From: Lentisphaerota bacterium | GTDB taxonomy: Bacteria > Verrucomicrobiota > Kiritimatiellia > UBA8416 > JABMPJ01 | DNA: 57,756 bases | Reading direction: 5' to 3' | NCBI GenBank assembly: GCA_013203785.1 | Contig: JABMPJ010000196.1 | Coordinates: 1-57,756 of the forward strand | In this document: piece by piece, positions 27,520 through 33,910 of the stretch | Layout: every line of letters starts with the position of its first letter | Position numbering within the stretch: position 1 is the stretch's first letter | Translations under genes and position numbers: made by a program | Notes under the pieces: model-generated | What the model saw: only the letters and a program-made list of their open reading frames with translations | What the model was told of the DNA's origin: nothing | The model's database searches: none

Positions 27520-27535
27520 CAGTGCAAATTAGTGA

Positions 27536-27672
27536 GTCTTCAGGGCAGGGTGCGCCCGCGTGAGCGGACAATTCCCGACCGGCGGTAATAGCCCGCGAGT
27601 CTTTTGCTGGTTGCGAAGGACAGACACAGTGCGATTCTGTGGCCGACAGTATAGTCTGGATGAGAGAAGATG
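27536..27672 (+). promoter_or_regulatory. FMN riboswitch (RFN element)
   Basis: The invariant FMN aptamer blocks appear in order: CAGGGCAGGGTG, then ATTCCCGACCGGCGGTAATA, GCCCGCGAG, and later GGCCGACAGTATAGTC followed by TGGATGAGAGAAGATGG. The variable P3 and P5 parts fit between them. It is followed by a T-run terminator and then ribBA, so FMN binding should stop transcription of the rib operon. Strongly conserved and unmistakable. Confidence 0.95.
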
Positions 27673-27728
27673 GTGGCACGACGTACGGGTTACGTCCGGG
27701 TGATCTCTTTCTCTCGGGCGTTTTTTTT
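27661..27728 (+). terminator. Terminator of the FMN riboswitch expression platform
   Basis: Eight T (27721-27728) follow CTCTCGGGCG. GAGAGAA(G)A at the 3' edge of the aptamer can pair with the T-C-T-T-T-C-T-C-T-C stretch before the T-run, with a small GACGTA/TACGTC hairpin inside. This overlap of the aptamer 3' strand with the terminator stem is the usual logic of a transcriptional FMN switch. The exact fold was not computed. Confidence 0.7.
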
Positions 27729-27758: not shown

Positions 27759-28970
27759 ATGAGTGAAGAAGTGGAGTTGTTTGACCCCGTGCCGGAGGCG
27801 TTGGATGCGATCCGGGCCGGTCGTATGGTCATCGTTACCGACGACGCCAATCGTGAGAATGAGGGGGACCTGATCTGTGCCGCCGAGTTGGTCACCGATG
27901 CGTCCATTAACTTCATGGCGACCCATGGACGAGGACTCATTTGCGTGGCTCTGCCATCGGAGCGTGTCAGGTCGCTTGGTTTGACGCGCATGGCGATGCG
28001 GGGGCAGGGCGATGCGTTCAATACGGCTTTCCTCGAATCCGTGGACGCAGCACGCGGCATCAGCACGGGGATCAGTACGCATGACCGGGCCGAGACGGTG
28101 CGCGTGCTCATTGATGAGGCCAGTGGCAGCAGTGATCTCGTCAGTCCAGGGCACACCTTTCCCTTACAGGCTATGGATGGGGGGGTGCTGAACCGGGCGG
28201 GCCATACGGAAGCCGCCATGGATTTGGCACGTCTGGCCGGGCTGCGCCCTGCCGGAGTGATCTGTGAGATTTTGCGGCCGGATGGAGCCATGGCACGCCT
28301 GCCTGAGTTGCGCGCCTTCGCCAGGGAACACGGGCTCAAGATTACATCGGTGGCCGACATCATTGCCTATCGCCGCCGTACCGAGAAGATGGTGGGCTGC
28401 ATCCGTCAAGTCGGGATGCCGACCCGGCACGGGGATTTTCAGCTCAAACTCTTCCATTCCGCAGTGGACGATGAGCATCATGTGGCTTTGGTCATGGGCG
28501 ATATCACGCCCGAGGAGCCCGTCCTGGTGCGGGTCCATAGCGAGTGCCTGACGGGGGATGTTTTCCATTCGCGGCGGTGTGATTGTGGCAGCCAGTTGGA
28601 GGAGGCCATGTGCATGGTGGAGGAGGAGGGCAAAGGGATTGTGCTCTATATGCGGCAGGAGGGCCGTGGGATAGGTCTGGCCAACAAAATTCATGCCTAT
28701 GCCCTGCAAGATGGCGGACTCGATACCGTGGAGGCGAATGAGGAGCTGGGCTTTAATGCTGACCTCAGGGAGTACGGTATCGGGGCGCAGATTCTGACCG
28801 AGCTGGGCGCACAGCGCCTGCGGTTGATTACCAACAATCCCTGCAAGATCGTAGGGCTGGAGGGGTATGGACTGGAGATTGTTGAGCGCATCCCCATCGT
28901 CGTGGGCCACCATGAACACAACAAGCGCTATCTGGATACGAAGAAAGAGAAGCTGGGACACCTGCTGTAG
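27759..28970 (+). CDS. ribBA: Bifunctional DHBP synthase / GTP cyclohydrolase II
   Basis: A 403-residue enzyme making both riboflavin precursors. The N-terminal RibB half has D-D-A-N-R-E-N-E-G-D-L and S-T-G-I-S-T-H-D-R-A; the ligands E, D and H are present, as is H-P-like G-H-T-F-P-L. The RibA half has the zinc Cys set in S-E-C-L-T-G-D-V-F-H-S-R-R-C-D-C-G and Y-M-R-Q-E-G-R-G-I-G-L, then N-P-C-K-I-V-G-L-E-G-Y-G. Both catalytic sites look intact. It follows the FMN riboswitch and begins the rib operon; the next gene lies 36 bases on. Confidence 0.96.
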   Translation: MSEEVELFDPVPEALDAIRAGRMVIVTDDANRENEGDLICAAELVTDASINFMATHGRGLICVALPSERVRSLGLTRMAMRGQGDAFNTAFLESVDAARGISTGISTHDRAETVRVLIDEASGSSDLVSPGHTFPLQAMDGGVLNRAGHTEAAMDLARLAGLRPAGVICEILRPDGAMARLPELRAFAREHGLKITSVADIIAYRRRTEKMVGCIRQVGMPTRHGDFQLKLFHSAVDDEHHVALVMGDITPEEPVLVRVHSECLTGDVFHSRRCDCGSQLEEAMCMVEEEGKGIVLYMRQEGRGIGLANKIHAYALQDGGLDTVEANEELGFNADLREYGIGAQILTELGAQRLRLITNNPCKIVGLEGYGLEIVERIPIVVGHHEHNKRYLDTKKEKLGHLL

Positions 28971-32556: not shown

Positions 32557-32610
32557 GGATCCTGACGGTCGGGGGCCTTCGGTCGCTGCTCTGACCCAAG
32601 ACGTGGAGGG

Positions 32611-32641
32611 CTTGCCCCCCGTAGCCTTGGCGAAGGGGGGA
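32611..32641 (+). repeat. GC hairpin element in rnpB, copy A (P3 region)
   Basis: CTTGCCCCCCGTAGC then CTTGGCGAAGGGGGGA: a stem of six C and six G with an inner GCC-TT-GGC. It abuts the P4 sequence GAGGAAAGTCC, so it occupies the 3' half of the P3 region. It closely matches the element at 32761-32791. Confidence 0.7.
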
Positions 32642-32760
32642 GGAAAGTCCGGACACCGTAGGGCAGGATGCCTCGTGAAAACGGGGGACGTTACGTTAAA
32701 GCGTGATGGACGGCCAGTGCCACAGAAAATATACCGTCTGCTTGAGCTGGGTTGCAGGGG

Positions 32761-32791
32761 ACTTGTCCCCCGTAGCTCTAGCAAAGGGGGA
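32761..32791 (+). repeat. GC hairpin element in rnpB, copy B (P12 region)
   Basis: ACTTGTCCCCCGTAGC then TCTAGCAAAGGGGGA: same layout as copy A, with inner GCT-CT-AGC instead of GCC-TT-GGC, a compensating change that keeps the stem paired. It lies between the ACAGAAA and AGGGTGAAA cores, where the variable P12 helix belongs. Confidence 0.7.
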
Positions 32792-33016
32792 TAAGGGTGA
32801 AATGGTGGTGTAAGAGACCACCGGGTCAAGCGTAAGCGCGATCGCAAGGTAAACCCCATCCGGTGCAAGATCAAATAGGGAACGAGAGACGGCCCGTCTC
32901 ATTTCCCGCGGCGCGCAAGTATTCGCGGGATGGAAGTTTCGGGTTGATCGCAAAGATAAATGACTGAACCCTGGCAGGGCCGCTTGCGGTGCTGGTGGGC
33001 CAACAGAATCCGGCTT

Positions 33017-33910
33017 ATGACCCCCGATCGTCGTTATGCTTTCTACGCCGCCCGTCTCTCCCCGCTGGTTATGCTAGCGGCAATCGGCTGGGGAGGGTGG
33101 ATGGTCTATGCCGCTTGGTCGCTTCCCACTCCTGCAGTAGCCAGTGTGGTGGTTGCGAAGGGCCCCCGTCTCACTTCCTCCACTGCGGTGTTGCCCGCTG
33201 ACCTCGACTGGGGTGTCTTCCAGAACGAGGAGGCGGCAGTACCCACCTCGCGTGGCGCCTTGTCGCGTCGCTTCCGCTTGGCCGGTACGTTCTTCGCCTA
33301 TGGCAGCGAGTCCGGCGACACGCGTAAAGCCGTGCTCCATGATCTGGGGGACGGCGTGCAGCATATTGTGGGCGAGCAGGCTAAGATTGGCGATGTGGAG
33401 GTCGTTCGGATCATGAGCGACCGCGTCATTCTGCGCCGCGGCGCAGAGGAAGCGGAGCTCTGGCTGGGCTTCTCGCGGGCGGATGAGAGCGTTCCAAGCG
33501 GCGAGGAGGTCGAGACGGCCAAAGCGGAGAACGGCGAGGATCTCTTTGGCGGTCGTAAGACAGGGGAGAATGACTGGGTCTTCCGTCGCGACGCCCTTCA
33601 GGATTATTATGAGGCGGTGTTGGACGATCCGGAACGGCTCGTGCGGATATTCGACTCGATGAAGGCTGTCCGCGGTGCCGACAATAAGATCGAGGGATAC
33701 CGTCTCGATATCCTCGGTGAGGGCGAATTCTACCATGCCGTCGGAATGCGACAGGGCGACATCGTGCACAAGGTCAATGGCATGAGCATGACCAGCCGTC
33801 GGCGGGCGGAATTCTTTATCGGCGAATTTGCACGCAACCGCGCCAATGCGTTCGTCATCGAGATCGAACGTGACGGTGCTCCCGAGAAGCTGACGTACCA
33901 GGTTCGGTAA
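33017..33910 (+). CDS. GspC-like type II secretion inner-membrane protein with PDZ
   Basis: A 297-residue single-pass inner-membrane protein. Short cytoplasmic M-T-P-D-R-R-Y, membrane helix at about 16-38, then a periplasmic homology region (S-R-R-F-R-L-A-G-T-F-F, D-V-E-V-V-R-I-M-S-D-R-V-I-L) and a C-terminal PDZ-like domain (M-R-Q-G-D-I-V-H-K-V-N-G). In type II secretion GspC links the inner-membrane platform to the secretin. The ATG at 33017 is inside the 3' end of rnpB and has no clear ribosome site; a start at 32960 would lie fully inside rnpB and a start at 33071 would cut the helix. The secretin gene is 5.5 kb away. Confidence 0.75.
   Translation: MTPDRRYAFYAARLSPLVMLAAIGWGGWMVYAAWSLPTPAVASVVVAKGPRLTSSTAVLPADLDWGVFQNEEAAVPTSRGALSRRFRLAGTFFAYGSESGDTRKAVLHDLGDGVQHIVGEQAKIGDVEVVRIMSDRVILRRGAEEAELWLGFSRADESVPSGEEVETAKAENGEDLFGGRKTGENDWVFRRDALQDYYEAVLDDPERLVRIFDSMKAVRGADNKIEGYRLDILGEGEFYHAVGMRQGDIVHKVNGMSMTSRRRAEFFIGEFARNRANAFVIEIERDGAPEKLTYQVR

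Follow-up and report, generated by a model that had tools for sequence, protein, structure and literature searches.

Two GC-rich hairpins in the RNase P RNA gene of this Lentisphaerota bacterium are, in all likelihood, copies of a dispersed palindrome of about 30 nt that has repeatedly entered helices P3 and P12 of this RNA, a joint reading that takes in the mechanistic steps proposed below. On this reading an essential ribozyme has been reshaped by a small mobile palindrome, and sister species with and without the insert would serve as natural before-and-after pairs. The window, by which we mean the whole 57,756-nt stretch of DNA that was analysed, contains a full-length match to Rfam family RF00010 that clears the gathering score and identifies the host gene as a class A rnpB. 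Covariance-model alignment of this gene places one hairpin (copy A) in P3 and the other (copy B) in P12, two helices known to lack sequence conservation (PMC4264200). The features concerned are as follows.

32570-33030, + strand: rnpB, class A bacterial RNase P RNA (RF00010; Infernal 177.6 bits against a gathering score of 100, model positions 1-367)
32586-32610, + strand: 5' side of P3, including a GGAGGG arm able to pair with copy A (Rfam pairs CUGCUCUG with AAGGGGGG)
32611-32640, + strand: copy A, the 30-nt palindrome within P3, CTTGCCCCCCGTAGCCTTGGCGAAGGGGGG; repeated directly as copy B and matching the class-wide core exactly
32734-32761, + strand: 28-nt 5' strand of P12, complementary to copy B (MFE -30.4, duplex -31.3 kcal/mol)
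32762-32791, + strand: copy B, 30-nt unit, predicted 3' strand of P12, CTTGTCCCCCGTAGCTCTAGCAAAGGGGGA; direct repeat with copy A and match to the core pattern

A blind repeat search paired 32608-32639 with 32759-32790, 151 nt apart and 81% identical over 32 nt, and an exact 17-nt motif occurs within the window in copies A and B only. The sequence-only reading had described two related GC hairpins in one rnpB, a description borne out by the RF00010 match, the repeat pair and the placement in P3 and P12, and had pointed to a compensatory change in the inner stem, which is indeed GCC/GGC in copy A and GCT/AGC in copy B, the inner pair passing from C-G to T-A. Its layout of the units holds as well, with the ends it gave (32611-32641 and 32761-32791) now refined to 32611-32640 and 32762-32791, 30 nt each, on the model of clean 30-nt insertions elsewhere; its outline of the hairpins had omitted a further complementary arm upstream, GGAGGG before copy A and GGGGA before copy B. 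Elsewhere in the window, a ribB/ribA-like fusion gene (27759-28970) is preceded by an ordinary FMN riboswitch (27532-27675).

The palindrome is far from confined to rnpB. Its 18-nt core, searched as CCGNAGCYNTRGCRAAGG, has five exact matches in this genome (G000), three of them outside rnpB, and 31 in four congeners (5 to 11 per genome), against none for the reversed pattern in either case. The search for further copies that the sequence-only reading had proposed thus came out in its favour. Across the class the core was found in 118 of 240 genomes, with a maximum of 103 copies in one genome, and in a phylum-wide sample in 47 of 145, while reversed-pattern controls gave 0 to 2 matches per genome. 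That P3 and P12 are ordinary helices which resemble each other by chance is scarcely credible in the face of this genome-wide search: P3 and P12 of class A RNAs are GC-rich, variable hairpins, but copies A and B share 81% of 32 positions, and hundreds of dispersed copies have the 18-nt core in common where controls are near zero.

Dispersed copies avoid long open frames: 52% lie in them against 81% of flanking control sites, although this measure is a rough one where DNA is rich in GC. At two loci (L074 in G136 and L076 in G187, around position 1500) the unit stands in frame inside prepilin-like genes, where the added residues, LAC(Q/R)PKPWRR(Q/P)V, have an FTLIELL motif on each side, the flanking coding sequence being duplicated. 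At four other loci (L007, L111, L112, L120) a tRNA gene is found no more than about 200 nt from a copy, and at L007 one tRNA gene has copies on both sides. An Rfam scan of 60 further loci with dispersed copies returned nearby tRNAs and no second structural RNA host, and none of the copies at these loci matched an Rfam family above its gathering score. The genome with 103 exact core copies is G227 (L141-L170), in which the 30 copies read are embedded in two longer repeats that add outer stems of their own, TTGCTTC..GAAGCAA and AGCCTT..AAGGCT.

The unit is about 30 nt long, reads roughly CYTGYCCKCCGNAGCYTTRGCRAAGGMGGR and mostly begins with CYTG. Covariation among dispersed copies strongly supports a hairpin: in 71 copies outside G227, drawn from 84 distinct copies, positions u1-d1 pair 55 times where 26.8 were expected, and u4-d4 pair 67 times where 34.9 were expected. 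Both pairs lie in flanks outside the searched core; in 80 of the 84 copies the inner pair is Watson-Crick. Outer and inner stems are separated by a conserved 3x3 mismatch, GNA/GRA, which is partly fixed by the search pattern. Near-identical 30-nt units are cleanly inserted into unrelated repeats. Genome G003 has TCCATCCTG-30 nt-TCCATCCATGT where G004 has TCCATCCTGTCCATCCATGT, and it has CATCCGTGTC-30 nt-ATCCGTGGTTAATT, of which the uninterrupted form, ATCCGTGTCATCCGTGGTTAATT, lies within a match in G001; an insert of 30 nt separates CATCCGTGYC from ATCCGTGGTTAATT in both G003 and G001, the latter having ATCCGTGTCATCCGTGGTTAATT as well. In both comparisons, G003/G004 and G003/G001, the difference between filled and empty forms is exactly 30 nt and, apart from a 1-nt ambiguity, no target site duplication is seen. 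Because the flanks themselves belong to other repeats, the filled and empty pairs are non-orthologous sites, and a search for orthologous empty sites with identical flanks returned only the same boilerplate repeats at other loci; such pairs nevertheless fix the length of the unit. From this distribution and from the clean insertions we infer that the unit is mobile.

Comparison of 157 rnpB genes of the class, fetched and parsed, tells a similar tale within the host gene. Ordinary P12 helices in the class mostly measure 21-48 nt and those bearing the element 64-66 nt. It is present in P12 of six of the 157 genes, all from this order (G000, G002, G018, G019, G026, G029), and in P3 of G000 and G018, with a nested or partial form in P3 of G001. 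In this last case (L049), TCCTCCATAGCCCTTTGGGCGACGGAGGA stands within a copy of the element as an apparent nested insertion. A strict gapped P12 pattern run over the class matched 15 genomes, all with a short P12 devoid of the element, and is too strict to give prevalence. Presence and absence alternate within three genera: in g1, G000 and G002 have the P12 element and G001 and G003 do not, G002 and G003 being sisters with support of 97/93; in g20, G026 has it and its sister G030 does not (100/98); and in g21, G029 has it and G028 does not. Sister species lacking the element, which the sequence-only reading had proposed looking for, are therefore found, and together with the copies elsewhere they speak against two ordinary helices of independent sequence. 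G002 and a public Kiritimatiellia genome (L101) have identical P12 sequences, which puts genus g1 in that class. Beyond the class, the motif occupies the same P12 position in GTDB genomes of Geomonas, Pelobacter, Desulfuromonadales, Verrucomicrobia and Lentisphaerae, and in records labelled Dadabacteria, Bacteroidetes and Alphaproteobacteria, metagenome-bin labels that may be wrong.

In another explanation, the long P12 is an old, vertically inherited architecture of RNase P RNA that was lost many times and from which the dispersed copies derive. The long form does recur in several phyla with almost the same length and arrangement of parts, and loss from a variable helix would be easy. This history is nonetheless unlikely: dispersed copies are without the 28-nt 5' strand of P12, the clean insertions consist of the 30-nt unit alone, the unit also occupies P3 in two genomes and partly in a third, and only six of 157 genes of the class have it in P12. 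Under the preferred reading of repeated entry, some P12 copies could still have been inherited and then lost, as opposed to gained several times. In other families, P12 of L047, L050 and L287 (with a related case in L032) holds in place of the element a second, longer palindromic insert starting GTCTTCGCCCTYCGGGCTACGACGCGGCAGG, and similar strings also occur outside rnpB in L018 and L168. Further long inserts are found in P12 of L176, L181, L183 and L192, with ATCTGAGATTTCAGA...GAAATTTCAAATGTC common to L183 and L192.

In the P12 of this gene, copy B is probably not folded on itself; modelling instead suggests a single long helix in which copy B supplies the 3' strand and pairs with a 5' strand matched to it. 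Its predicted duplex with that strand reaches -31.3 kcal/mol, against -13.5 kcal/mol for its own hairpin; in the whole-RNA ensemble most bases of the 3' strand pair with the upstream strand at 0.93-0.96, and the fold puts the CTTG of copy B in the apical loop. Over a test set of 11 P12 and two P3 helices, own 5' and 3' strands gave a mean of -27.9 kcal/mol against -25.8 for swapped ones (permutation p = 0.0036), and the native 5' strand ranked first for copy B among the 13 tested. Copy A in P3 is ambiguous, being predicted to form either its own hairpin or a duplex with the GGAGGG on the 5' side: the two sides of P3 form a duplex of -22.9 kcal/mol, and the whole-RNA ensemble favours the hairpin (0.67), with the consequence that strand matching is supported for P12 alone. 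The suggestion of the sequence-only reading that a hairpin is tolerated as an RNA helix accordingly stands as regards the helix and probably falls, in P12, as regards self-pairing. Two forms of P12 can be told apart: a short one (Pelobacter and one Geomonas), in which the unit's hairpin simply extends P12, and a long one, including that of this window, in which the unit is modelled as the 3' strand of a single long helix with CTTG as apical loop. In one Verrucomicrobia record (L107), P12 contains two units in inverted orientation to each other.

As to what moves the unit, one candidate is a REP-associated tyrosine transposase (RAYT) encoded in the same genome, which would make the unit a REP; we consider this improbable. 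The size and stem-loop form of the unit are REP-like, this genome holds 14 Y1_Tnp matches, and the element occurs in 111 of 204 genomes with a Y1_Tnp match against 7 of 36 without one (Fisher p = 1e-4). That association, however, is confounded by lineage, and copies are present in those seven genomes without a match. No copy lies at eight transposase loci of this genome. A set of 40 such loci (109 kb), drawn from 29 genomes in the class, yielded a single weak match with two mismatches, unlike the element; several of the RAYTs there have another hairpin on their flanks, e.g. TCGTAG-CCCAGGCCAACGGCCTGGG. The element's GNAG, moreover, sits inside the stem, is not terminal, and varies at N (T 47, A 26, G 6 and C 5 among 84 copies). 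With no convincing copy at transposase loci and no terminal GTAG, a route other than RAYT is suggested; a flanking RAYT is apparently not the mobiliser, and no element-linked enzyme was found. RAYT-like genes at L305, L310, L311, L314, L328 and L337 have their own GTAG-tagged or related hairpins, such as CCCAGG..CCTGGG and CCCGGGG..CCCCGGG, which are unrelated to the element.

How might a guest of this size travel and settle? We propose that it spread through Kiritimatiellia and other Verrucomicrobiota as a very small palindrome, moving as single-stranded DNA or by hairpin-templated copying, perhaps with the help of an unlinked nuclease that acts on single-stranded DNA. P3 and P12 would tolerate it because these helices are variable and the insert can itself fold. 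After insertion, the opposite strand of P12 may become matched through a second copy, fold-back copying or selection, so that P12 becomes a single long helix with the unit's CUUG end as its cap. The element is probably without function for the cell, a tolerated selfish insert. The proposal of the sequence-only reading, a mobile or duplicating palindrome tolerated as an RNA helix, gains support from dispersal, clean insertion and sister presence and absence. Rather more doubtful, if still plausible, is the fullest version of this account, a 30-nt non-autonomous mobile hairpin that uses non-RAYT machinery, ranges across phyla and repeatedly colonises P3 and P12, its 5' CYTG becoming an apical tetraloop and the host strand being rewritten to pair with it. 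Sister pairs allow the effects of the insert on RNase P folding and activity to be tested, together with the adjustment of a partner strand in an RNA helix; the element would also be one source of length variation in P3 and P12, and suggests that something other than the RAYTs found in these genomes mobilises such tiny hairpins.

No earlier report of the sequence was found in the main texts of open papers. In some cyanobacteria, short tandemly repeated sequences belonging to a dispersed family lie within rnpB; they too are dispersed and inside this gene, but are short tandem repeats and not a palindrome. Bacterial MITEs such as Correia, ERIC and RUP are likewise small, non-autonomous and palindromic, but make a target duplication where this element shows none. 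GTAG REPs are single stem-loops, 20-40 bp long, whose stems show compensatory changes; they often lie between genes, and Opitutus terrae (Verrucomicrobia) is rich in them, intragenic copies included (PMC3733652). The present element, in 118 of 240 genomes, is similarly a dispersed palindrome with compensatory stem changes, but its GNAG is internal, faces GRA, varies at N and is not accompanied by a terminal GTAG, and none of its copies was found adjoining RAYT genes; it is set apart from the published families (PMC3733652) by description and not by consensus sequences. By insertion behaviour, and not by sequence identity, the closest known kind is the Rickettsia palindromic element (RPE), which is found between genes, in frame in protein genes, and in tmRNA and RNase P RNA (PMC2229807), and which the sequence-only reading had named as a precedent inside genes. 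The element described here also occurs between genes, in frame in protein genes (L074, L076) and in rnpB; RPEs, however, measure 105-146 bp and belong to Rickettsia (PMC2229807), whereas this unit has 30 nt, crosses phyla and uses P3 besides P12.
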